NCBI RefSeq assembly: GCF_006716785.1
Contig: NZ_VFPQ01000001.1
Coordinates: 4,030,001-4,094,000 of the forward strand
DNA from: Thermopolyspora flexuosa
Lineage (GTDB): Bacteria > Actinomycetota > Actinomycetes > Streptosporangiales > Streptosporangiaceae
DNA: 64,000 nt
Reading direction: 5' to 3'
Under the pieces are notes generated by a model. It was not told the DNA's origin and did not search any database. It saw only the letters and a program-made list of their open reading frames with translations. Position numbers and translations under genes: made by a program. Shown piece after piece: positions 3,913 through 25,841 of the stretch; position 1 is the first letter of the stretch; each line of letters starts with the position of its first letter.

Positions 3913-4809
3913 TCAGGCGGACCGCGGCGCCGGGTCGGGCCGGCGCAGCGGGAACGGCGACATGCCGCCGCCGTCCACCGGGATCGCCTGCCCGGTGACG
4001 TAGCCGCTGTCCGGCGAGGCGAGGTACGCGACGGCCGCGGCCACGTCCTCCGGACGGCCCACCCGGCCGACCGGGATGTTCTGCGCCCGCCGCCGCAGCG
4101 TCTCCTCGACGTCGAGGTCCGGGTTCGGGTCGAGGATCGCCCGGCTCGTCGCCACCAGGCCCGGGCACACCGCGTTGACCGTGATCCCCCACGGGGCCAC
4201 GTCCATCGCGAGCGCCCGGGTGAACCCGATCACCCCGGCCTTGGAGGCCGAGTACGCGGTGGAGAACGGCGCCGCGGTCAGGCCGGCCATCGAGGAGATG
4301 TTGACGATCCGGCCGTACCGCTGCCGCCGCATGTGCGGCACCGCCGCCCGGCACATCAGGTACGTGCCCCGCAGGTTGACCCCGATGACCAGGTCCCAGG
4401 CCTCCAGCGGGATGTCCATGATGTCGGCGCGGTCCGCCCCCTGGGGCGCGGCGGCGTTGTTGACCAGCACGTCGATCGCGCCGAACCGGTCGACCGTGGC
4501 GGCCACCATCGCCTCGGCGCTCTCCGGGCTGGACACGTCACCGAGGACCGAGGCGACCTCGTGGCCCTCGGCGGTCAGCCGCTCCACGAGCCGCGCCAGT
4601 CCGTCGGTCTGGCCGTACGTCTCGCCCTTCTTCTCGGCGACGATGCGCTGCCGGGCGTTCGGCACCCCGGCGGGCTCCTTGTCGGCGACCATCACCGCCA
4701 GGCCCGCGCGGGCGAGCCGTGTCGCGATCGCCTGTCCCATGCCGTCCGGCTTGCCGCAGCCGGTGACGAGCGCGACCCGGCGCCGCTCGGGGGCGTTTCC
4801 CTCCGTCAC
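3913..4809 (-). CDS. SDR family NAD(P)-dependent oxidoreductase
   Basis: Classical short-chain dehydrogenase/reductase of 298 residues. The nucleotide-binding glycine motif is TGCGKPDGMG, longer than the usual TGxxxGxG. NNAA, the catalytic Ser in NISS, and YSASK with the Tyr/Lys pair follow. A stretch of about 20 extra residues between strand 2 and the next helix (around EPAGVPNARQRIVAEKKGET) is unusual. Mycofactocin-associated SDRs also carry an insertion near the cofactor site, but I cannot assign this one to that group. The start is the GTG at 4809, which forms a GTGA overlap with the stop of the upstream gene, so translation is probably coupled. It is the last gene of the UGSC operon. The substrate is unknown. 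Confidence 0.88.
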   Translation of the reverse strand: MTEGNAPERRRVALVTGCGKPDGMGQAIATRLARAGLAVMVADKEPAGVPNARQRIVAEKKGETYGQTDGLARLVERLTAEGHEVASVLGDVSSPESAEAMVAATVDRFGAIDVLVNNAAAPQGADRADIMDIPLEAWDLVIGVNLRGTYLMCRAAVPHMRRQRYGRIVNISSMAGLTAAPFSTAYSASKAGVIGFTRALAMDVAPWGITVNAVCPGLVATSRAILDPNPDLDVEETLRRRAQNIPVGRVGRPEDVAAAVAYLASPDSGYVTGQAIPVDGGGMSPFPLRRPDPAPRSA

Positions 4810-5903
4810 TGCGCCTGCCCTTCCTTCGGCGGCTCGATCCGGGCGGAGATCCCGGACCAGTTGGAGAACAGCCGGACGACCATGGAGATGCCCGCGTTCC
4901 GGGCGCCCGCCACGATGATCGGGATGTTCTTCGGCGAGGCGTCGGCGTAGTAGCGGTCGAAGCCCTCGAGCTCGCCCTCGTCCCGCCGCACGTGCCCGTG
5001 GATGCCGTTCTTGCCGGCCTTCGCCAGCTCGGCCTTGGTCTTGCCGCAGCGCTCGAACAGCCACTGGCGCACGTCGTCCTTGCTGAAGCCCGCCTTGGCG
5101 AGCATCTGCGCGTGCTCGGGGCAGAACACGATGCCCGCGCTGGCGTGCGTGAAGATCCAGCTACCGGCGCGCGAGATGGTGTCGGCGAAGTCGCCGAGCA
5201 GCTTCTCGGGGTCACTGGTGTGCCGGTTGTCCACGAACTCGCTGGTGCGCAGCAGCATGGTGGAGACCGCGTTCACCCCGGCGGTCACGCCGCCGTCGAC
5301 GGACAGCGGCTCCCACGGGCTCTCCTCCTCGTTCTCGGCGATGCAGATCGACCACCGCCCGGGGATGCCCTGGGTCGCCTGCTCCAGCACGTGCGGCTTG
5401 ACGCCGAGCGCGTTGCGCACGATGAGGCCGACCGTGCGGGCCACGGTGGCGTTCGGCCGGAAGCCGGGGCCGAACACGCCGCCGGTGCTGTTGAAGCCGA
5501 GCTCGTTGCGGATCGGCCCGTTGATCACGATGAGCGGGGCCGGGCCGCTCGTGCTCTGCCAGCCGCCGCCGACCGTGGCACGCTCCGCCATGAGCGCGTC
5601 CCAGGTGGCGAGCACGACCGGGAAGTACTCCGGCTTGCAGCCGGCCATCACCGCGTTGATCGCGGCGAGCTCGACCGTCACCTCGCGCTTGAGGTGGTCC
5701 AGCCGACCGATCACCTCGTCGGCGGGCCGCGTGGTGGTGGCGAGGAACTCGTCCACCCGCTCGCGGGTCGCCGGGATCACGGGCAGGCCGTCGGTCCAGC
5801 CCTGCTCGTACATGTACTCGAAGGCCTTGTGGGCTCCCTCGAGCGGGTCCGTGATCGGACCCGCCCCGTCGGACGCCGTCTCGGCCACCTCGTTGATCGT
5901 CAT
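4806..5903 (-). CDS. Conserved protein associated with UGSC-type redox proteins
   Basis: A 365-residue soluble protein of the uncharacterised family usually encoded beside UGSC-motif (seleno)proteins. Recognisable features are the N-terminal YMYEQGWTDGLPVIPAT and a central GWQSTSGPAPLIVINGP with GFNSTGGVFGPG, which look like ligand-binding loops; Cys residues occur in VMAGCKPEYF, IVFCPEHA and FERCGKT. No known catalytic motif was recognised. The start is the ATG at 5903, which forms an ATGA overlap with the UGSC gene. It therefore probably makes a fixed ratio with that protein and may form a two-component enzyme with it. Role inferred from genomic pairing only. Confidence 0.75.
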   Translation of the reverse strand: MTINEVAETASDGAGPITDPLEGAHKAFEYMYEQGWTDGLPVIPATRERVDEFLATTTRPADEVIGRLDHLKREVTVELAAINAVMAGCKPEYFPVVLATWDALMAERATVGGGWQSTSGPAPLIVINGPIRNELGFNSTGGVFGPGFRPNATVARTVGLIVRNALGVKPHVLEQATQGIPGRWSICIAENEEESPWEPLSVDGGVTAGVNAVSTMLLRTSEFVDNRHTSDPEKLLGDFADTISRAGSWIFTHASAGIVFCPEHAQMLAKAGFSKDDVRQWLFERCGKTKAELAKAGKNGIHGHVRRDEGELEGFDRYYADASPKNIPIIVAGARNAGISMVVRLFSNWSGISARIEPPKEGQAQ

Positions 5904-6442
5904 TTCACTGCCTCGCACACCCGCTTCGCCACCACGTCCACCAGATCCGCGGCCCGCTGGGCGACCTGCTCCTGGTTGAGCACGGCGACCGGGTGCGGGG
6001 TGAGCAGGAACTCGAAGTCCTTGTCACCGTGCACCTCGGCCATCGCCCGCGCCGTCACCTCGAACGCCTCGGTGACGATCACCGCGGTCGGGATGCCCTC
6101 CCGCTCGAACAGGATCCCGTCGGCCGTCGCCGAGGCACTGCACGAGCCGCAGTCGCCCACGCCGACGACGACCACGTCGCTCACCGCGGCGACCTCCTTG
6201 AGCTGCGGCTCGTCCACCGGGAAGGCGACGTGCGGCTTGGTGCGCTGGATCGTCACCGTCGCGCCGTACCGCGACTCCAGCAGCTTGCCGATCTCGGCGA
6301 GCAGCTCCTTGGCGTTCTGCTTGGTGTTGTTCAGCAGACCCACACGGGCGCCCTTCAGCGAGGGCACCCGTCTCGCGGCCGTGGCCACGCTCGCGGGCCC
6401 CGACGACGTGAGCCCGGTCGGGTCAAGGATGCGGTCGAACAT
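5900..6442 (-). CDS. UGSC-type redox protein, cysteine form
   Basis: A 180-residue protein with the signature GDCGSCSAS (Cys98-Gly-Ser-Cys101). In the UGSC family the first position is selenocysteine in some members; here it is an ordinary TGC cysteine, so no recoding is needed. An alpha/beta pattern (LKGARVGLLNNTKQNAKELL near the start, then VVVGVG before the Cys motif) suggests a compact Rossmann-like fold, somewhat like selenoprotein B subunits of glycine/betaine reductases; that resemblance is my inference. The Cys-x-x-Cys pair predicts thiol redox chemistry or covalent catalysis. AGAGGTG precedes the ATG. It is the second gene of the operon, before its partner and an SDR. Confidence 0.8.
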   Translation of the reverse strand: MFDRILDPTGLTSSGPASVATAARRVPSLKGARVGLLNNTKQNAKELLAEIGKLLESRYGATVTIQRTKPHVAFPVDEPQLKEVAAVSDVVVVGVGDCGSCSASATADGILFEREGIPTAVIVTEAFEVTARAMAEVHGDKDFEFLLTPHPVAVLNQEQVAQRAADLVDVVAKRVCEAVK

Positions 6443-6602
6443 CCCTCACACACCTCTTTTCGTCATCTCCGGGCCTCCGGCCCGCTCATCGCCTCCGGCC
6501 GGCCCACTGCCTGCGCGTCCCGGTGGCCGGGCGCCGTCGTGCGGCGGCGTGGCCGTACCTCGGGCGCCCGCGGGACGCCCGCTCGCACGCCGCCGGGGTG
6601 AT

Positions 6603-6851
6603 CTAGGCGGACGGGGTCTCCGCCGCCTCCACGTCGCTGGGGTAGGTGAGCCGGATCGCGTCGGCGCCGACGCCGAGGATCGGCTCGAGCATGCTCGCCA
6701 ACACCTTCTTGGGTACGAGGCAGTCGGCACAGGCTTCGGGATCCGCGGTGATCCGCACGTCGTAGCCGGAGTCGTTCTCCGTCACGCTCAGGTGGTAGCC
6801 GTCGGCGGCCAGCGTGGACCGCATCTGCTCCAGGCGTGCCTCGTCGCGCAT
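6603..6851 (-). CDS. Small CxxC protein heading the UGSC operon
   Basis: An 82-residue protein with a single Cys-Ala-Asp-Cys pair (Cys41, Cys44) after a beta-hairpin-like YHLSVTENDSGYDVRITAD. GAGGCAAG sits directly before the ATG. About 160 bp separate it from the UGSC gene, but there is no gene or strong terminator between, so co-transcription is likely. A small acidic CxxC protein beside a Cys-based redox protein may serve as an electron or thiol carrier; that is inference. I do not recognise the family. Confidence 0.65.
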   Translation of the reverse strand: MRDEARLEQMRSTLAADGYHLSVTENDSGYDVRITADPEACADCLVPKKVLASMLEPILGVGADAIRLTYPSDVEAAETPSA

Positions 6852-7165: not shown

Positions 7166-8053
7166 GTGAGTATGACTGTCCTGGCAGACAGGTCTCCGGA
7201 GCCCGTTCGCCTGACGTCGGCCCAGCGTGTGCTCTCGATTCTCGGGGTCTTCGACACCGAGAACGTCGCGCTCACACTCAGCGAGATCAGCCGTCGCACC
7301 GGCCTCACGCTCAGCACGACCCACCGGCTCGTCAACGAACTGCGCTGCTGGGGGGCGCTCTCCCGGCACAGCGACGGCAAGTACAGCATCGGACTTCGCA
7401 TCCTCGAGCTGGGCACCCTGGCACCCCAGGGCGGACAGCTCCGCGAGATCGCACTCCCCTACCTGCACGATCTGCAGCATGCGACCCGCGCCAACGTCCA
7501 CCTCGCGGTGCCCGACGGGCACGACGTCATCTACGTGGAGTCGCTGCGCGCCCGGGACACCGTCCCGGTGCCGAGCCGGCTCGGCGGGCGCTGGCCCATG
7601 CACGCGACCGGCACCGGCCTGGTGCTGCTCGCCTACTCCCCGCAGGAGTTCCAGGAGGAGGTCTTCGCCTCCGACCTGCGCAAGTACACCGAGAAGACGC
7701 TGACCGACCCGGACGAGCTGCGGCACTTCCTCGCCGAGGTACGCAAGTCGGGCGTCGCGATCGTGGAGAACCAGCTCACCTACGACGTGATGGCGGTGGC
7801 CGTGCCGATCCGCGGCCCCCGGGACCGCGTCGTGGCCGCGCTCGGCATCACCGTGAAGACCGGCTCCACCTCGCCGCACTCGCTGGTGCCCGCGCTCGCC
7901 GCCACCTCCCGGAGCATCTCCCGCGCGCTCGGCGCGCCGTCCGCGGGCGCCGACCCGTCCATGCCGCGCCCGCAGCAGCACCACTGGCCGGTACGCGAGG
8001 CCAAGCGGGACAGCAGGCGCACGGTGGTGCCGCGCCGGCGGCCGCCGCGCTGA
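7166..8053 (+). CDS. IclR family transcriptional regulator
   Basis: A 295-residue DNA-binding regulator. The N-terminal winged helix-turn-helix (about 17-75) contains LTLSEISRRTGLTLSTTHRLVNEL. The IclR effector domain follows (about 85-260), with GLRILELG, a ligand-pocket region HATGTGLVLLAY and the late VAVPIRG strand. The C-terminal 35 residues are basic and variable. IclR proteins respond to small catabolic intermediates. The gene is divergent from the UGSC operon, with palindromic candidate operators between them; similar sites occur upstream of the alcohol dehydrogenase, peptide-type transporter and Zn-dehydrogenase operons. The GTG at 7166 or the ATG at 7172 is the start; the SD-like AGGTGAG overlaps the GTG. 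Confidence 0.9.
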   Translation: MSMTVLADRSPEPVRLTSAQRVLSILGVFDTENVALTLSEISRRTGLTLSTTHRLVNELRCWGALSRHSDGKYSIGLRILELGTLAPQGGQLREIALPYLHDLQHATRANVHLAVPDGHDVIYVESLRARDTVPVPSRLGGRWPMHATGTGLVLLAYSPQEFQEEVFASDLRKYTEKTLTDPDELRHFLAEVRKSGVAIVENQLTYDVMAVAVPIRGPRDRVVAALGITVKTGSTSPHSLVPALAATSRSISRALGAPSAGADPSMPRPQQHHWPVREAKRDSRRTVVPRRRPPR

Positions 8054-9841: not shown

Positions 9842-10690
9842 CTACTCCTCGTCCATGGGCACCGAGGTGACCGGCTCGACCGGCCGGTACGTCGGGCCGC
9901 CCTCCACGGTGAGGATGTGACCGGAAACCCAGCGGGCGCGGTCGCTGAGCAGGAAGAGGGCCGCGTAGGCGATGTCCCAGGCGGTGCCCTCCTGCTGCAG
10001 GGCGTTCATCTTGCGGCGCGGCTCGCGCATGCGCTCGTCCATGTGCGCGGCGGCGAACGAGCCCCAGATCGCGCCGACCCGCACGCAGTTCACCCGGATG
10101 CCCTGCGGGCCGAGCGTGGTCGCCGCGCCCTCGGTCATGTTCTCCACGCCGGACTTGGCGACGTTGTAGACCATCGCCGGGCCGCGCGCCACGACGCCGA
10201 CCGAGGAGATGTTCACGATCGCGCTGCCCCGCGGCATCGCCGGGACCGCGTGCCGGGTCATGAGCCAGGCCGACTTGAGGTTGAGCGTCATCAGCTCGTC
10301 GAACCGCTTCGGCGTCACCTCGAACAGGCCGGCCCGGTCGCCGGAGGCGACGTTGTTGACGAGCGCGTCGAGCGTGCCCCAGCGCTCGACCACGGTGGCG
10401 ACGGCCTCGGCGCAGGAGCGGTCGGAGGTGACGTCGGCGACCACCGGCATCGCCTCGCCGCCGTCCTGCTCGATGATCTTGACGGTGCGCTGCGCCGCCT
10501 CGGGATCCCGGTCGAGCACCGCCACCCGCGCGCCGTGCGCGGCGGCGAGGCGGCAGATGGCGTACCCGACCCCGGGCAGCGTCCCGTTCTGGCCGCCGCC
10601 GGTGACCAGGGCGGTACGGCCGGCCAGCCACTTGGGGCCGGCGCCGGCGAACGGGTCGACCAGCGGATCGACCGCGGGTGCGTCGGGCAT
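9842..10690 (-). CDS. SDR family oxidoreductase with expanded glycine motif
   Basis: Short-chain dehydrogenase/reductase of 282 residues. The cofactor motif reads TGGGQNGTLPGVGYA, about five residues longer than usual between the first Gly pair and the GxG. NNVA, the catalytic Ser in NISS, YNVAK and a C-terminal SGHILTVEGG are present. The start is the ATG at 10690, preceded by GGAG at normal spacing. It stands apart from the ligase gene upstream by 275 bp containing a strong hairpin, so it may have its own promoter. The acyl or alcohol substrate is unknown; the neighbours suggest a role in the same catabolic route as the ligase and alcohol dehydrogenases. Confidence 0.87.
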   Translation of the reverse strand: MPDAPAVDPLVDPFAGAGPKWLAGRTALVTGGGQNGTLPGVGYAICRLAAAHGARVAVLDRDPEAAQRTVKIIEQDGGEAMPVVADVTSDRSCAEAVATVVERWGTLDALVNNVASGDRAGLFEVTPKRFDELMTLNLKSAWLMTRHAVPAMPRGSAIVNISSVGVVARGPAMVYNVAKSGVENMTEGAATTLGPQGIRVNCVRVGAIWGSFAAAHMDERMREPRRKMNALQQEGTAWDIAYAALFLLSDRARWVSGHILTVEGGPTYRPVEPVTSVPMDEE

Positions 10691-10804
10691 GGACTCGCTC
10701 CAATCGTCGTCACGGGGGCCCGGCCGCCGGGGAGAGGAACGGGGGCGGCGGGCCGGGGGAAGGGGGTTCACCACGGGCGGGCGCGGAGCGGGTCACGGGG
10801 GCGT

Positions 10805-12328: not shown

Positions 12329-13444
12329 TCAGTCCTCGTGGATGATGACGCCGCGGATGTTCTTGCCCTCTTCGAGGTCGTGGTAGGCCTCGTTCACCTG
12401 GTCGAGGGTGTACCGGCGGGTGATGAGCTCCTTGAGCTTCAGGTCGCCCGACCGGTAGAGCCCCAGCAGCTTCGGCACGTCGTACAGCGGGTTGCAGTCG
12501 CCGAACAGCGCCCCGCGGATCTGCCGCTGGTAGCTGATGAGAAAACCGGCGTGCACGTTCACCGCGCCCTGCCGGCCGACGCCGGTGATGGTGACCTTGC
12601 CGCCCTTGCCGACCATGAGCGTGGCCGCCTGGACCATCTCCGCGGTGACCAGGTCGGGGGTGAGGATCGCGTGGTCGGCGAGCTGTCCCCAGGTGGTCTC
12701 GACGACGAACTCGTGGGCCTCCTTGGCGGTGGCGAAGGCGTGCGTGGCGCCGAAGACCTCCGTCGCCATCTGCCGCTTGAACTCGACCGGGTCGACCACG
12801 ATGACGTTCTTCGCCCCGGCGAAGCGGGCGCCCTGCACCGCGTTGCTGCCGACGCCGCCCGCGCCGAAGATCACCACGGTGTCGCCGGCGCGGACCCCGG
12901 CGGCGTACACCGCCGAGCCCCAGCCGGTCGGCACGCCGCAGCCGACGAGCGCGCCGAGCTCGAACGGGATGTCGTCGGGCAGCGGGATGCACGCGTACTC
13001 CGACACCACCGCGTACTGGGAGAAGGTGCCGAGGGTGCAGAAGCCGCCGAAGTCCTCGCCGTCCTTGTGGAACCGGAACGTGCCGTCGAGGAACATGCCG
13101 GTGCCCGCGTTGAGGCCCTTCTCACACATGTTCTGGTGGCCGGTCGAGCAGGGCCGGCAGGCACCGCAGGCCGGGATGTAGGAGCAGATGATCCGGTCGC
13201 CCGGCTTCACCCGCCGCACGTGCGGGCCGACCGACTCGACGATGCCGGCGCCCTCGTGCCCGCCGACGATCGGGAACCGCACCGGGGCGTCGCCCTTGGT
13301 GATGTGGTTGTCGGAGTGGCACAGGCCGGACGCCTTGAAGCGCACGCGCACCTCGTGCGCCTTCGGGGGGTCGAGCTGGAGTTCGGTGATCTCCCAGCCG
13401 ATGTGCGGGGCGCGGGCGACGGCGGCCCGGGTCGTGATGATCAT
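12329..13444 (-). CDS. NDMA-dependent (mycofactocin-type) Zn alcohol dehydrogenase
   Basis: Medium-chain Zn alcohol dehydrogenase of 371 residues in the nicotinoprotein/NDMA-dependent class whose in vivo electron acceptor is thought to be mycofactocin. Catalytic zinc ligands are Cys42 and His63-Glu64 (GGHEGAG). The structural zinc site has Cys93, Cys96, Cys99 and Cys107 (CGACRPCSTGHQNMC). The Rossmann motif is GAGGVGSNA. The whole sequence is colinear with the protein encoded at 15968-17077, so the two are paralogues. GGGGA lies 5 nt before the ATG. It sits between a luciferase-like oxidoreductase and the acyl-CoA ligase. Confidence 0.9.
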   Translation of the reverse strand: MIITTRAAVARAPHIGWEITELQLDPPKAHEVRVRFKASGLCHSDNHITKGDAPVRFPIVGGHEGAGIVESVGPHVRRVKPGDRIICSYIPACGACRPCSTGHQNMCEKGLNAGTGMFLDGTFRFHKDGEDFGGFCTLGTFSQYAVVSEYACIPLPDDIPFELGALVGCGVPTGWGSAVYAAGVRAGDTVVIFGAGGVGSNAVQGARFAGAKNVIVVDPVEFKRQMATEVFGATHAFATAKEAHEFVVETTWGQLADHAILTPDLVTAEMVQAATLMVGKGGKVTITGVGRQGAVNVHAGFLISYQRQIRGALFGDCNPLYDVPKLLGLYRSGDLKLKELITRRYTLDQVNEAYHDLEEGKNIRGVIIHED

Positions 13445-13517: not shown

Positions 13518-14459
13518 TCACGGCGCCGCGACCTTCATCGCCTTGACGTGGGGCAGGACCTCGGCGCCGATCAGGGCGATGTGGTCCAGGTCGTGGATGT
13601 CGTAGACGGCCAGATAGACGGTGTCGATGCCGAGTTCGGCGAGCTCGCCGATGCGCTCCACGAGCTGCTCGGGCGAGCCGCTCGCCGCGTTGGACTGGAT
13701 GAACGGCGAGCCCATCGCGGCCACGCGGCGCTCGACGTCGGCGGCCGTGGTGCCGACCGCGGCCGGGACGAACGCCGAGCGGCGCGGCTCGGCGGGGTCG
13801 CGGCCGATCGCCTCGCAGGCCCGGGTGAACGTGTCGAGCTGCACGCGCATGTCGCCGCCGAGCGCCAGGTTGTACTCGGTCGCGTACCGGGCCGCGATCG
13901 CCGGGGTGCGCTTGAGGCCGGTGCCGCCGACGAGGATCGGCGGGTGCGGCGACTGCACCACCCGGGGCGGGCTGTAGTTCTTCTCGATCCGGTAGTGGGC
14001 GCCCTCGAAGGAGAAGGGCTCACCGGGCTTGGCCGTCCACAGCCCGGTGATGACCGCGAGCTGCTCCTCCAGCCGGTCGAACCGCTCCTTGGTGGCCGGG
14101 AACGGGATGCCGAACGCGGCGTGCTCCCGCTCGTACCAGCCGGTGCCGAGGCCCAGCTCGACCCGGCCGCCGCTCGCCTGGTCCACCGTGGCGAGGATGG
14201 TGGCGAGCAGGCCCGGGTAGCGGTAGGTGGCGGCGCCCATCAGGGCGCCGAGCCGTACCCGCTTGGTGTCCCGGGCCAGCGCGCCGAGCGTGGTCCAGCA
14301 GTCAGTGGGCTGGTAGGACGGGTCGTCCGCGACCACGCCGAGCAGGTGGTCGGACCGGAAGAAGGCGTCGAACCCGGCCTCCTCCACGGCGAGCGCGAGG
14401 GCCCGGAAGTCGGCGTAGGTGCCGCCGTGGCGCGGCTCGATGTGGATGCGCAGCCGCAC
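13518..14459 (-). CDS. LLM-class flavin/F420-dependent oxidoreductase
   Basis: Luciferase-like monooxygenase family TIM barrel of about 313 residues. Recognisable elements are RIHIEPRHGGTYADF at the start, GFDAFFRSDHLLGV, VDQASGGRVELGLGTGWYE and PPILVGGTG. In actinomycetes such proteins use F420 or FMN. Reaction and substrate are not determinable. Two starts are possible: GTG 14459, chosen because it sits just before the first strand, and GTG 14483, which overlaps the end of the aldehyde dehydrogenase gene by 14 nt. Either way the gene is tightly coupled to the aldehyde dehydrogenase upstream. Confidence 0.85.
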   Translation of the reverse strand: MRLRIHIEPRHGGTYADFRALALAVEEAGFDAFFRSDHLLGVVADDPSYQPTDCWTTLGALARDTKRVRLGALMGAATYRYPGLLATILATVDQASGGRVELGLGTGWYEREHAAFGIPFPATKERFDRLEEQLAVITGLWTAKPGEPFSFEGAHYRIEKNYSPPRVVQSPHPPILVGGTGLKRTPAIAARYATEYNLALGGDMRVQLDTFTRACEAIGRDPAEPRRSAFVPAAVGTTAADVERRVAAMGSPFIQSNAASGSPEQLVERIGELAELGIDTVYLAVYDIHDLDHIALIGAEVLPHVKAMKVAAP

Positions 14460-14469
14460 CCCCTCGCGG

Positions 14470-15954
14470 TCAGTTCGTGCCACGGATCGACACCGCCTTG
14501 ATCTGGGTGAAGTTCTTGACCGCCTCGGCGCTCATGGTCCGGCCGAAGCCGCTGCGCTTGTAGCCGCCGAACGGCGCGCCGATCACGCCGGCGCCGAGCG
14601 CGGCGTTCACCGCGACCTGGCCGGCCTGCAGCGCGCGGGACATCCGGACCGCGCGGCCGACGTCCTGGGTCCAGACCGAGGCGACGAGGCCGTAGTCGGT
14701 GCCGTTGGCGACCGCGACCGCCTCCTCCTCGTCGTCGACCGGGATCACGGAGAGGACCGGGCCGAAGATCTCCTCCTGCGCGATGCGCATGTCCGGGCCC
14801 ACGTTGTCGAACAGGGTCGCCTCGACGAAGAAGCCCTTCTCGAACTCCTCGCCCTTCGGCACGCCGCCGCCGAGCACCAGATCGGCCCCCTCCTCCTGGC
14901 CGATCTTGATGTAGTTGAGCACGCGGTCGTGCTGCTTGCCGTTGATCAGCGGGCCCATGCGGACCGGCTTGTACCACGGGCCGACGGTGACCTTCTTCAT
15001 CTCCTCGGCGAGGCGGCGCACCACCTCGGCGTGCACCGAGCGCTCGACCACCACGCGCGAGCCGGCCGCGCAGATCTGGCCGGTGTTGAGCGTGATGCCC
15101 GCGACGATCTGCGGGATCGCGGCGTCCAGGTTGGCGTCGGCGAAGATCACCTGCGGCGACTTGCCGCCGAGCTCCAGGTGGAGCGGGGTGAGGTTCTTGG
15201 CGCAGGCGGCCATGACCAGCTCACCGGTCTCCGGCGAGCCGGTGAAGCTCATCCGGCGGATGCCCTTGTGGCCCGCGACGGCCGCGCCGGCCTCGTGGCC
15301 GTACCCGGTGACGACGTTCACCACGCCCGCCGGGATGCCCGCCTCCATGGCGAGCTTGGCCAGCGCCAGCGGGGTGAGCGGGGCGTCCTCGGCCGGCTTG
15401 ATCACGATCGTGTTGCCCGCGGCGATCGCGGCGCCCACGTCGTTGCAGAACATCGGGCCGGGCGCGTTCCACGGGATGATGCTGCCGACCACCCCGTACG
15501 GCTCACGCAGGGTGAGGCCGATCACGTCGGGGGTGTGGGTCGGCATCGTGGTGCCGAGCACCTTGTCGGCCTGGCCGGCGATGAACTCGAGCTGGCGAGG
15601 GATCGCCAGCGGGCCCCAGTGCGGGCGGCCGACCTCCATCGACTCGAGCTTGTCGATCTCGGCCTCGTGTTCCCGGATGAGCCGTGCCCACTTGGCCACC
15701 AGCTCGCCGCGGACCGTGGCGCTGGTGTCCCGCCACTTGGGGAACGCCTCGGCGGCGGCCTTGACGGCGTTGTCGACGTCGGCGGCGGTGCCCCGCGGCA
15801 CCCGGGCGAGCACCTCACGGGTCGCCGGGTTGATCACCTCGATGGTCTCTCCGCTGACCGCCGGCACCCACTCGCCACCGATCAGGTGCGCGTTCTCGAT
15901 GATCAGCGGGCTCGCGGGAGAGTTGGTCGCCGACTCGGAGAGGGTGGTGGTCAT
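14470..15954 (-). CDS. NAD(P)-dependent aldehyde dehydrogenase
   Basis: A full-length ALDH of 494 residues. The cofactor region PWNAPGPMF, FTGSPETGELV, the catalytic Glu in LELGGKSPQVIF and the catalytic Cys in GQICAAGSR (around residue 300) are all present, as is EEIFGPVLSV near the end. It oxidises an aldehyde to the acid. GAGGAG lies 10 nt before the ATG and only 13 nt separate it from the alcohol dehydrogenase gene upstream, so the pair would convert an alcohol to an acid in two steps. The acid could then be used by the PaaK-like ligase two genes on. Confidence 0.93.
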   Translation of the reverse strand: MTTTLSESATNSPASPLIIENAHLIGGEWVPAVSGETIEVINPATREVLARVPRGTAADVDNAVKAAAEAFPKWRDTSATVRGELVAKWARLIREHEAEIDKLESMEVGRPHWGPLAIPRQLEFIAGQADKVLGTTMPTHTPDVIGLTLREPYGVVGSIIPWNAPGPMFCNDVGAAIAAGNTIVIKPAEDAPLTPLALAKLAMEAGIPAGVVNVVTGYGHEAGAAVAGHKGIRRMSFTGSPETGELVMAACAKNLTPLHLELGGKSPQVIFADANLDAAIPQIVAGITLNTGQICAAGSRVVVERSVHAEVVRRLAEEMKKVTVGPWYKPVRMGPLINGKQHDRVLNYIKIGQEEGADLVLGGGVPKGEEFEKGFFVEATLFDNVGPDMRIAQEEIFGPVLSVIPVDDEEEAVAVANGTDYGLVASVWTQDVGRAVRMSRALQAGQVAVNAALGAGVIGAPFGGYKRSGFGRTMSAEAVKNFTQIKAVSIRGTN

Positions 15955-15967
15955 ATGCTGCTGCTCC

Positions 15968-17077
15968 TCAGTGCTCGTGAATGATCACGCCGCGGATGTT
16001 CTTGCCGTCGTTCATGTCCTGGTAGCCCTGGTTGACCTCCTCCAGCCGGTAGCGGCGGGTGATCAGCTCGTCGAGCTTGAGGTCGCCCGTGCGGTACAGG
16101 CTCAGCAGGCGCGGCACGTCGTACAGCGGGTTGCAACCGCCGAAGATCGCACCCTGGACCCGGCGCTGGTAGCCGATGAGGATGCCGGGGTGGTGGTTGA
16201 GCTTGCCGTTGCCGACCGCGGTGATGGTCACCTGGCCGGACTTGCCCACGATGTTGAGCGCGTGGTCGATCACCTCGTCGTGCAGCTGGCCGACGGTGAT
16301 GATCGCGTGGTCGGCGAGGTGGCCCCAGGTGCTCTCGACGACGAACTCGTGGGCCTCCTTGGCGGTGGCGAAGGTGTGCGTGGCGCCGAAGACCTTCGCC
16401 ATGTCCCGCTTGAACTCGACCGGGTCGACCACGACCACGCGCTGCGCGCCGGCGAACCGGGCGCCCTGGATCGCGTTGCTGCCGACCCCGCCGGCGCCGT
16501 AGATCACCACGGTCTGGCCGGCCCGGACCCCGGCCGCGTACACCGCCGAACCCCACCCGGTCGGTACGGCACAGCCCACCAGCGCGGCGACGTCGAACGG
16601 GATGTCCTCGGGGATCTTGATGACCGAGTACTCCGACACCACCGCGTACTGCGAGAAGGTGCCGAGCACGCACAGCCCGCCGAAGTCCACGCCGTCCTGG
16701 TGGAACCGGAAGGTGCCGTCGGGGAACTCGCCGGTGGAGGCGTTCTTCCCGGCGTCGCACAGGTTCTGCCGGCCGGTGGAGCAGTAGCGGCACGCACCGC
16801 ACGCGGGAATGAACGAGCAGACGACGTGGTCCCCCACGGACACCCGGGTCACACCCTCGCCGACCGCGTCGACGATGCCGGCGCCCTCGTGGCCACCCAC
16901 GACCGGCATCCGCATGGGGCTGTCACCCTTTTGAATGTGGTCGTCGGAATGACACAATCCGGCGGCCATGAACTTGATACGGACCTCGTTCGGCCGCGGA
17001 TCGTCGAGTTCAAGTTCCGTGATTTCCCACGGCCTGCCGGGCTCCCGGCAAACGGCGGCACGCGTGGTAATGCTCAT
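15968..17077 (-). CDS. NDMA-dependent (mycofactocin-type) Zn alcohol dehydrogenase, paralogue
   Basis: A 369-residue alcohol dehydrogenase with the same zinc ligands and spacing as the protein at 12329-13444: Cys42, His63-Glu64, and CGACRYCSTGRQNLC for structural zinc, with Rossmann motif GAGGVGSNA. By family it is expected to hold NAD(H) tightly and pass electrons to mycofactocin. GAGGC precedes the ATG. It is the first gene of the ADH-ALDH-oxidoreductase-ADH-ligase string, and an 18-bp palindrome resembling the putative IclR sites lies about 130 bp upstream. Two such enzymes in one operon suggest two alcohol substrates or two steps of one pathway. Confidence 0.9.
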   Translation of the reverse strand: MSITTRAAVCREPGRPWEITELELDDPRPNEVRIKFMAAGLCHSDDHIQKGDSPMRMPVVGGHEGAGIVDAVGEGVTRVSVGDHVVCSFIPACGACRYCSTGRQNLCDAGKNASTGEFPDGTFRFHQDGVDFGGLCVLGTFSQYAVVSEYSVIKIPEDIPFDVAALVGCAVPTGWGSAVYAAGVRAGQTVVIYGAGGVGSNAIQGARFAGAQRVVVVDPVEFKRDMAKVFGATHTFATAKEAHEFVVESTWGHLADHAIITVGQLHDEVIDHALNIVGKSGQVTITAVGNGKLNHHPGILIGYQRRVQGAIFGGCNPLYDVPRLLSLYRTGDLKLDELITRRYRLEEVNQGYQDMNDGKNIRGVIIHEH

Positions 17078-23696: not shown

Positions 23697-24812
23697 ATGG
23701 CAGAAACGGTACGTGCGGCCGTCCAGGTCGCTCCTCGCAAGATCGAGGTGCGTGAGTTCCCCCGTCCCAAGATCGGTGACGACGACGCGTTGCTGCGCGT
23801 GGAGGCGAACGGCATCTGCGGCAGCGACGTCGAGATCTACAAGGGACACATGGGCGTGGGGACGCGGAGCGACTTCACGCCGTTCGTGCCCGGGCACGAG
23901 CCGATGGGCGTCATCGAGGAGATCGGCGAGCGCGCCGCGGCCCGCTGGGGGGTGCAGCCCGGCGACCGGGTGGCGGTGGAGATCATCGTCCCCTGCCACT
24001 CGTGCCGGCAGTGCGTCACCGGCGCGTACCAGTCCTGCCGGAACCGCAGGGCGAGCCACGGCGTGACCGGGATCGACGTGGCGCCGTCGCTGTGGGGCGG
24101 GTTCGCCGAGCTGATGTACCTGTCCCCGAACACGATCGTCCACAAGATCGACAAGACCCTGCCGGTCGAGGTCGCGGCGATGTTCAACCCGCTCGGCGCG
24201 GGCGTGCGCTGGGCGCTCCACTACGGCGGCGTGAAGCTCGGCGACACCGTGCTCATCCTCGGCTCCGGGCAGCGCGGCCTCGCCTCGGTGATCGCCTGCC
24301 GCGCGGCCGGCGCGGGCAAGATCATCGTCACCGGCCTGGAGTCGGACGCGCACAAGCTCGCCCTCGCCAAGGAGTTCGGCGCCGACCACACGATCGTGGT
24401 GGACGGCGAGAACGCCCAGGACACCGTGGAGACGGTGCGCGAGCTCACCGACGGCGAGGGCGCCGACGTGGTGCTCGAGCTGACCCCGATGGCGGTCCAG
24501 CCGCTGCACGACGCGCTGCTCGCCGCCCGGCACGGCGGCCGGGTGGTGCTCGCCGGCCTCAAGGGGCACCGCGACATCCCGCTCAAGACCGACCTCATCA
24601 TCAACCGGGCGCTCACCGTGGTCGGCGCGTTCGGCGTGGACTACCGCGGCATGGAGGAGGCCATCCAGATCATCGAGTCGCGCCGGTACCCGCTGGAGAG
24701 GCTGCACACGCACTCGTTCACCCTCGACCAGACCGCCCTGGCGATCGAGACCCTCGCCGGCGAGGTCCCCGGCGAGCTCCCCGTCCACGTCACGGTCCAC
24801 CCCAACGCCTGA
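23697..24812 (+). CDS. Zn-dependent medium-chain dehydrogenase
   Basis: Zn-binding dehydrogenase of 371 residues, similar in layout to threonine and sorbitol dehydrogenases. Features are GICGSDVEIYKG (first zinc ligand), GHEPMG, a structural zinc site CHSCRQCVTGAYQSC, and the Rossmann motif GSGQRGLASV. It would oxidise a secondary alcohol or polyol with NAD(P). It starts the rightward operon with the amidohydrolase 24 bp downstream. GAGAGG lies about 13 nt before the ATG, somewhat far. Substrate unknown. Confidence 0.88.
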   Translation: MAETVRAAVQVAPRKIEVREFPRPKIGDDDALLRVEANGICGSDVEIYKGHMGVGTRSDFTPFVPGHEPMGVIEEIGERAAARWGVQPGDRVAVEIIVPCHSCRQCVTGAYQSCRNRRASHGVTGIDVAPSLWGGFAELMYLSPNTIVHKIDKTLPVEVAAMFNPLGAGVRWALHYGGVKLGDTVLILGSGQRGLASVIACRAAGAGKIIVTGLESDAHKLALAKEFGADHTIVVDGENAQDTVETVRELTDGEGADVVLELTPMAVQPLHDALLAARHGGRVVLAGLKGHRDIPLKTDLIINRALTVVGAFGVDYRGMEEAIQIIESRRYPLERLHTHSFTLDQTALAIETLAGEVPGELPVHVTVHPNA

Positions 24813-24836: not shown

Positions 24837-25841
24837 ATGCTCATCGACTGTCACGCCCACCTGCTCCCCCGCGACTACCCGGCGGACGCGCCCGAGTGCT
24901 TCCCCCGCATGGAGCCGATCGACGGCGAGACCGCGCGCCTGCTGGTGTTCGGCGCCATGAAGTTCAAGGCGCGTGACGTGTTCTTCGAGGCCGAGCGGCG
25001 CGTCGAGGCGATGGACGCCGCCGGGGTCGACGCCGAGGTGCTCACCCCGATGCCGCCGCTGCTCCGCTACGAGCTGCCCGCCGGCGACTACCTGTCGCTG
25101 TGCCGGTGGGTGAACGAGTTCACCGCGGAGCTGTGCGCGTCCCAGCCCGGCCGGCTGTACGGCTTCGGCATCGTGCCGATGCAGGACGTGGACGCCGCGA
25201 CCGCCGAGCTGAAGGCGATCCGCGAGGCGGGCCTGTACGGCGTGGAGATCTCCTCGAACATCGCCGGCAAGTCCATCGGCGACGAGTCCTTCCTGCCGTT
25301 CTTCCAGGAGGCCGAGCGGCTCGGCATCCCGATCTTCGTGCACGCGATGCCGTCGCCGAACCCGCGGCTGCCGATGAGCACGATGGGCACGTTCGTGGTC
25401 GGCATCGAGGGCATGTACGCCGCGGCCTCGCTGATCCACGGCGGTACCGCGGAGAAGTGCCCGAACCTGCGCATCTCGTTCAGCCACGCGGCCGGTGGCT
25501 TCCCGCTCATGCTGCCCCGCGCCCAGTACTTCTGGGGCGGCACCTGGAACGAGGAGCCGCCGATCCCCGAGAAGGCGGTCGCCCACACCGAGGGGCCGTC
25601 CCCCATGGAGTACGCGCGCCGGTTCTACTACGACTCGCTCGTCTTCGACCGCCGCGCCCTCCGCTTCCTCGTCGACCTGCTCGGCCACGAGCGGCTGCTG
25701 GTCGGCTCGGACTTCCCGGCGATGGACCGCGAGGACCCGTGCGGGCGCACGCTCCGCATGCTCGACCTGCCGGAGGACGTGCTCAACGACATCACCTGGA
25801 ACAACGCCTTCCGCTGGCTGGGCATCGACCCGCCGAAGTGA
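24837..25841 (+). CDS. Amidohydrolase, ACMSD-like (amidohydrolase 2 family)
   Basis: A TIM-barrel metal-dependent enzyme of 334 residues. The metal site begins with DCHAHLLP (His-x-His); a further His is in IFVHAMPSP, another in SFSHAAGGFP, and the late Asp is in GSDFPAMDRE. The family includes 2-amino-3-carboxymuconate semialdehyde decarboxylase and gamma-resorcylate decarboxylase, so decarboxylation or hydrolysis of a ring-derived acid is plausible. CGGAGGG precedes the ATG, and the gene follows the Zn dehydrogenase closely. Three stable hairpins follow it, suggesting the end of the operon. Confidence 0.87.
   Translation: MLIDCHAHLLPRDYPADAPECFPRMEPIDGETARLLVFGAMKFKARDVFFEAERRVEAMDAAGVDAEVLTPMPPLLRYELPAGDYLSLCRWVNEFTAELCASQPGRLYGFGIVPMQDVDAATAELKAIREAGLYGVEISSNIAGKSIGDESFLPFFQEAERLGIPIFVHAMPSPNPRLPMSTMGTFVVGIEGMYAAASLIHGGTAEKCPNLRISFSHAAGGFPLMLPRAQYFWGGTWNEEPPIPEKAVAHTEGPSPMEYARRFYYDSLVFDRRALRFLVDLLGHERLLVGSDFPAMDREDPCGRTLRMLDLPEDVLNDITWNNAFRWLGIDPPK

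Follow-up and report, generated by a model that had tools for sequence, protein, structure and literature searches.

A cysteine-form UGSC operon of Thermopolyspora flexuosa: a candidate two-subunit thiol reductase with a dedicated Nfu-like companion

What do UGSC proteins do, and with which proteins do they work? UGSC is among the commoner selenoprotein families in aquatic metagenomes (GOS survey, 255 selenoproteins; PMC2398784), and our literature search on UGSC found no paper on its function; a 2020 paper naming both mycofactocin and selenoproteins was set aside because it concerns other genes. We addressed the question with an operon in a 64,000-nucleotide stretch of the Thermopolyspora flexuosa contig NZ_VFPQ01000001.1 (GCF_006716785.1; positions 4,030,001-4,094,000), hereafter the window, to which all coordinates of its genes refer. 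A first-pass annotation had described here four minus-strand open reading frames (ORFs) encoding a small CxxC protein, a UGSC-motif protein, its regular 365-residue partner and an SDR oxidoreductase, and all four were found as described (Table 1). We tentatively propose, as a plausible but by no means assured reading, that the operon encodes a two-subunit cysteine/selenocysteine (Cys/Sec) thiol reductase with its own electron donor, which would serve reductive bond cleavage in the catabolism of alcohols or aldehydes.

The UGSC protein of the window scored 201.4 bits against PF24696 (cut-off 25) and 153.7 bits against NF041046 (curated cut-off 125). Its motif is Cys98-Gly-Ser-Cys101, encoded by TGC GGC TCG TGC, which makes it a cysteine form with TGC at the Sec position, as had been read earlier. 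Across 67 aligned UGSC sequences (Sec read as Cys), Cys98, Gly99 and Cys101 are invariant, and position 98 is Sec in most relatives; within the phylum, UGSC was found in 23 of 296 genomes, mostly with an in-frame TGA. The predicted model (pLDDT 93.7) is Rossmann-like with alternating strands and helices, Cys98 following strand 90-96 and Cys101 lying in the first turn of helix 99-114. Structure comparison returned generic Rossmann or flavodoxin-like folds (Z up to 11.5), with no thioredoxin chain among the best 50 matches, an absence that is no proof; the Rossmann-like model does not appear to agree with the thioredoxin-like fold that had been proposed for UGSC (PMC2398784). A chain of the MCR activation complex (8s7v_H, Z 10.3) was also among these matches and was not taken as a relationship. 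Profile searches with UGSC and with the partner against PDB sequences gave chance matches only.

The 365-residue partner has no Pfam or NCBIfam match. Scanning GTDB genomes with the partner alignment yielded 80 partner loci, 76 of which have UGSC nearby, and the genomes of the remaining four carry UGSC elsewhere; conversely, of 28 loci found through UGSC and confirmed to have a UGSC domain, 27 have the partner within 1.5 kb. These data indicate that UGSC and its partner form a near-obligate pair, and the description of the partner as a regular one is borne out. Natural UGSC-partner fusions occur at two loci (L084 and L113; L numbers denote loci), and the pair is also found on haloarchaeal plasmids. 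A fusion of UGSC to a domain called Unknown_1, which may or may not be the partner, has been reported (PMC2398784). Residues D38, G39, R156, N164, E190 and W197 are invariant in 74 aligned partners.

In the window, the UGSC and partner genes are joined by an ATGA overlap (AAATGACG) and the partner and SDR genes by a GTGA overlap (CAGTGACG). The head-to-tail overlaps described earlier thus exist at these two junctions, but not between the CxxC and UGSC genes, which are separated by a gap of 160 bp (6443-6602). We nevertheless count the CxxC gene in the operon, because the 80%-identical ortholog at L198 keeps the order CxxC, UGSC, partner. The arrangement of the trio is far beyond chance, and the same genome has it at two further places: the host carries three UGSC genes, each with an adjoining partner and CxxC gene, and the two further operons are near-identical to each other, with a partner about 50% identical to that of the window.

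To which family does the CxxC protein belong? A hidden Markov model (HMM) grown from the members in the window operon and the second host operon recovered a family of small proteins, in which Cys41 and Cys44 are invariant in 13 aligned members. Relatives reached the cut-off of 27 bits for the NifU model PF01106 (L028, 34.8 bits; L036, 30.7; an Arthrobacter fusion at L210, 27.2), and the family profile matched the chloroplast NifU-like protein 2 (PDB 2z51; E 3.4e-7). No PF01106 match was listed up to E 10 for the window protein itself. We call it Nfu-like because it shows no Pfam NifU match on its own, while some of its relatives do.

The co-occurrence of this protein with UGSC was then assessed by profile search in two genome samples. 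Seven matches in the 296 genomes of the phylum scored above 80 bits, and every one of them adjoins UGSC; the next match scored 50 bits. Among 395 Actinomycetes genomes, only 23 of which have the partner, 16 of 20 matches (E <=1e-8) are fused to UGSC or the partner or lie within 1.5 kb of them; of the remaining matches, one is about 6 kb away and one is an ordinary Nfu protein by sequence. In addition, an Nfu domain is fused to the UGSC N-terminus in seven genomes and to its C-terminus in Arthrobacter, and such fusion at either end argues strongly for a common function. Because nearly all strong matches adjoin UGSC or the partner or are fused to UGSC, the CxxC protein is a dedicated component of the UGSC/partner system, the role of dedicated companion that had been conjectured for it. 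Among the closer relatives L040-L042 there is no CxxC gene within 8 kb, and the genome of L041 has a strong CxxC match at a contig position consistent with a distance of about 10 kb.

One clade (L185-L190) carries CGDNC, a CxxxC motif, in place of CxxC in the Nfu domain fused to UGSC.

Other loci carry other parts for thiol or electron supply. At 21 out of 107 loci, the partner begins with a thioredoxin-like N-terminal domain containing a CxxC and a VPT motif, for which Pfam gives no more than weak thioredoxin-clan matches. On an Arthrobacter plasmid, trxB, trxA, partner and UGSC genes are consecutive, with overlapping trxA and partner genes, and trxB adjoins the genes in L199-L201 (one actinomycete genus, three genomes) and L211. 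In Variovorax, trxB and an SDR gene are near the partner, and a downstream gene takes the UGSC position. TrxA and TrxB form the electron route of betaine reductase (PMC8547467). The suggestion that the CxxC protein is a thiol or electron carrier is therefore plausible, since thioredoxin-like domains or trxB-trxA occur instead at other loci, with the refinement that the carrier would be Nfu-like and that binding of an iron-sulfur (Fe-S) cluster is a real alternative. The 13 Nfu-like loci and the 21 thioredoxin-fused loci do not overlap, a pattern that is only mildly unlikely by chance, follows lineage and was not used as proof.

Genes annotated as phosphosulfolactate synthase and CocE/NonD hydrolase precede the Arthrobacter trxB-trxA-partner-UGSC operon (L210:6698-7486) and may hint at a substrate.

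We compared UGSC with component B of glycine reductase and its D-proline reductase counterpart (GrdB/PrdB). A Pfam scan of the window UGSC protein gave PF24696 only and no PF07355 (GRDB) domain, and hhalign of UGSC against PF07355 alone gave no match, because that model stops short of the Sec codon. With GrdB/PrdB-type proteins read through the TGA, a pairwise hhalign comparison matched UGSC to their C-terminal Sec domain with 94% probability (E 1.3e-7), aligning Cys98 on Sec, while the controls stayed at or below 3.9% (50 column shuffles), 0.4% (reversed profile) and 3.1% (20 unrelated alignments). By this profile alignment, UGSC is a remote homologue of the GrdB/PrdB Sec domain, which concerns one domain and not membership in that family. 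By likeness to GrdB/PrdB, the reaction is probably a reductive cleavage. A pyruvoyl group derived from partner Cys89 was considered and rejected, since this residue is Ala in L084 and L030.

As a separate observation, the phylum commonly has short Sec proteins whose motif is UPxC or ULTC (L130-L139). Their match to PF07355 is limited to its C-terminal part, and their Sec is missed by the Pfam model, which ends right before the Sec codon.

How might such an enzyme work? In the proposed mechanism, UGSC would carry the redox or nucleophilic pair Cys98/Cys101 (Sec98 in most relatives) as nucleophile and resolving cysteine, and the partner would complete the active site and probably bind the substrate. 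The nucleophile would attack an activated carbon or heteroatom, and a C-X bond (X = N, S, O or halogen) would be cleaved reductively, leaving Cys98-Cys101 as a disulfide. This disulfide would be reduced by the Nfu-like protein, which thioredoxin would recharge; elsewhere, a fused thioredoxin domain or TrxA/TrxB might supply the electrons instead. The enzyme would belong to a catabolic route that also employs mycofactocin-type alcohol dehydrogenases, an aldehyde dehydrogenase and a CoA transferase and that may be controlled by the divergent IclR protein. Several points weigh against this scheme. No trxA or trxB gene was seen adjoining the window operon itself, and about 70% of partner loci lack both the Nfu-like protein and a fused thioredoxin-like domain in their vicinity, so that a donor encoded at the locus is not a general feature. 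The known role of Nfu domains is that of Fe-S carriers (PMC7939391) and not that of dithiol donors. Homology between UGSC and GrdB spans only about 62 columns around the Cys, and the hhalign value comes from one pair of alignments rather than a database search. Finally, Pfam and NCBIfam scans, which did not compare the partner directly with GrdE/PrdA, recognised no pyruvoyl-type subunit in it.

The main rival, which we consider unlikely but the strongest of the alternatives, gives the Nfu-like protein the task of assembling or delivering an Fe-S cluster for UGSC and its partner, which would then be a lyase or dehydratase-like Fe-S enzyme with cysteines as ligands and no redox disulfide. Consistent with this, the CxxC family matches the NifU domain, and clusters of this kind are bound by the CXXC motifs of NFU proteins (PMC7939391). 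The partner model (pLDDT 89.9) has no clear structural match, and its best one is class I fumarate hydratase; this match (Foldseek E 0.018; Z 5.6 over 95 residues) is weak and confined to the C-terminal third, lies below a meaningful level and may be chance. Two partner cysteines are highly conserved, C89 in 73 and C187 in 71 of the 74 aligned partners, but the replacement of C89 by Ala in L084 and L030 and the loss of C187 in L025 and L029 would be unusual for cluster ligands. Sec at UGSC position 98 in most relatives also argues against a cluster, and the thioredoxin-like domains and trxA/trxB at other loci cannot deliver one.

Less probable still is covalent catalysis with no net redox change, in which Cys98 would serve as nucleophile for a transfer, a hydrolysis or an isomerisation, and the sole job of the CxxC protein would be to keep the cysteines reduced. 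In the predicted Rossmann-like fold, the place of Cys98 just before a helix, with Cys101 in its first turn, is a usual position for a nucleophile, and PatB-like and other hydrolases are among the generic fold matches of UGSC; nevertheless, the frequent Sec at position 98 together with the invariant Cys101 favours redox chemistry, and a dedicated trxB-trxA-partner-UGSC operon exists. That the pair guards the pathway against oxidants, as a peroxidase or disulfide reductase and not as a substrate-specific enzyme, is very unlikely: the UxxC/CxxC motif and the grouping of UGSC with thiol oxidoreductases in selenoproteome work (PMC2398784) speak for it, but the gene context is catabolic and pathway-dependent (alcohol and aldehyde dehydrogenases, CoA transferases, amidohydrolases, TctC and ABC transporters), two diverged operon versions in one genome suggest substrate specificity, and UGSC is predicted to be Rossmann-like, not thioredoxin-like.

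Table 1. Genes of the UGSC operon and its surroundings in the window.
Feature	Position	Strand	Evidence and remarks
Operon SDR oxidoreductase, 298 aa; GTG start overlaps partner stop	3913..4809	-	PF13561/PF00106
UGSC partner, 365 aa, no named family	4806..5903	-	Conserved pairing with UGSC; model pLDDT 89.9
UGSC family protein, Cys form, 180 aa	5900..6442	-	PF24696, NF041046; Cys98 codon 6149-6151 (TGC), Cys101 codon 6140-6142
CxxC protein, Nfu-like, 82 aa	6603..6851	-	ORF; family HMM and alignment; Cys41 codon 6729-6731, Cys44 codon 6720-6722
IclR-family regulator, divergent from operon	7166..8053	+	PF01614/PF09339
Second SDR	9842..10774	-	Orthologs directly follow partner in other genomes
NDMA-dependent (mycofactocin-type) alcohol dehydrogenase	12329..13444	-	TIGR03989 501 bits, cut-off 440; 79-81% orthologs in UGSC loci
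LLM-class F420-type oxidoreductase	13518..14483	-	TIGR03560 above cut-off; orthologs in L041, L042
Aldehyde dehydrogenase	14470..15954	-	70-78% orthologs in L040, L041, L204, L209
Second NDMA-dependent alcohol dehydrogenase	15968..17077	-	TIGR03989 529 bits; 81-86% orthologs in UGSC loci
Zinc-type alcohol dehydrogenase (MDR)	23697..24812	+	Adjoins partner in L041 and L209
Amidohydrolase (PF04909)	24837..25841	+	70-73% orthologs in L041, L209

In which pathway could the proposed reductase act? The operon does face an IclR gene, as the first-pass annotation stated, and this gene is kept near the pair with 85% identity in L198, 77% in L039 and 64% in L040. The same annotation placed the operon next to mycofactocin functions, which is true of two NDMA-dependent alcohol dehydrogenases 5-10 kb from the operon, both above the TIGR03989 cut-off, but not of the mycofactocin maturase MftC, which is encoded in the host genome away from this locus. 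In genomes of Geodermatophilus, Streptosporangiaceae and others, the pair is again surrounded by orthologs of both dehydrogenases (79-86% identity), along with those of the window aldehyde dehydrogenase, LLM oxidoreductase, MDR, amidohydrolase, CoA transferase and IclR protein, and we therefore assign the system to a catabolic route via alcohols and aldehydes. Elsewhere, the pair adjoins CoA transferases, amidohydrolases, dehydratases and TctC transporters, with ABC transporters also in the context; given these varied neighbours, the substrate probably varies between loci.

The adjacent SDR, which might have supplied or removed a carbonyl, did not hold up as a specific component. Its ortholog adjoins the partner at just one other locus, L040, and orthologs of the second SDR of the window occupy the place beside the partner in L198-L201, L203 and L040, so that an SDR in this place is a recurrent but exchangeable neighbour. 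Against TIGR03971 (mycofactocin-coupled SDR), the operon SDR scored 178.8 bits, below the cut-off of 300.

Variant forms of the pair were also observed. Partner genes are tandem or in repeated copies at L043, L082, L091, L117, L078 and L201; L043 has two partners and an Nfu-like gene with no UGSC nearby, UGSC being elsewhere in that genome. At L031:1306-3054, the partner is fused to a UGSC-like domain whose motif reads GDMGTSS, the cysteines being gone. In the host, the second UGSC-partner-CxxC operon is present twice, at L001 (G000:C1:824446-827880, on a 5.2-Mb contig) and L002 (G000:C2:442459-445893, on a 505-kb contig), with 99.5% identical partners; a search of plasmids that used the second copy as query gave no match.

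Since the Cys-form operon keeps partner and donor and needs no Sec incorporation, the enzyme should be expressible in ordinary hosts. The long-unassigned UGSC family thereby becomes testable through an actinobacterial operon present in two diverged versions in one genome. If the proposal is true, an abundant selenoprotein family would be tied to reductive bond cleavage in catabolism, and the Nfu fold would gain a possible new role.

Finally, we compared the system with known ones. The window protein agrees with the UGSC family (NF041046/PF24696) in sequence, motif and length and exceeds the two curated cut-offs, but it has Cys rather than Sec at position 98. The CxxC family shares the NifU C-terminal/Nfu domain (PF01106; 2z51) by profile, with the CxxC at the same place; in contrast to that domain, it is tied to UGSC and not to Fe-S assembly genes, has CxxxC in one clade, and in the window falls below the Pfam threshold. 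The mycofactocin-dependent NDMA alcohol dehydrogenases (TIGR03989) have two true members in the same conserved cluster as the UGSC operon; these are neighbours and not part of the UGSC enzyme, and many UGSC loci elsewhere have other neighbours. That UGSC and its partner constitute a separate class of Cys/Sec reductase, kin to glycine and proline reductase but lacking a pyruvoyl subunit, widespread in bacterial and haloarchaeal catabolic clusters and with an Nfu fold repurposed as dithiol electron carrier, seems to us rather doubtful, if conceivable. With GrdB/PrdB (component B of glycine/sarcosine/betaine reductase, and D-proline reductase; PF07355), UGSC shares remote homology in the Sec-bearing C-terminal domain, and some of its relatives are likewise linked to trxB-trxA. 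Different from GrdB/PrdB, the UGSC system has no PF07355 domain and no recognised pyruvoyl subunit, has a different partner, and its gene context across actinobacteria, other bacteria and haloarchaea is one of catabolic dehydrogenases and not of amino-acid fermentation.

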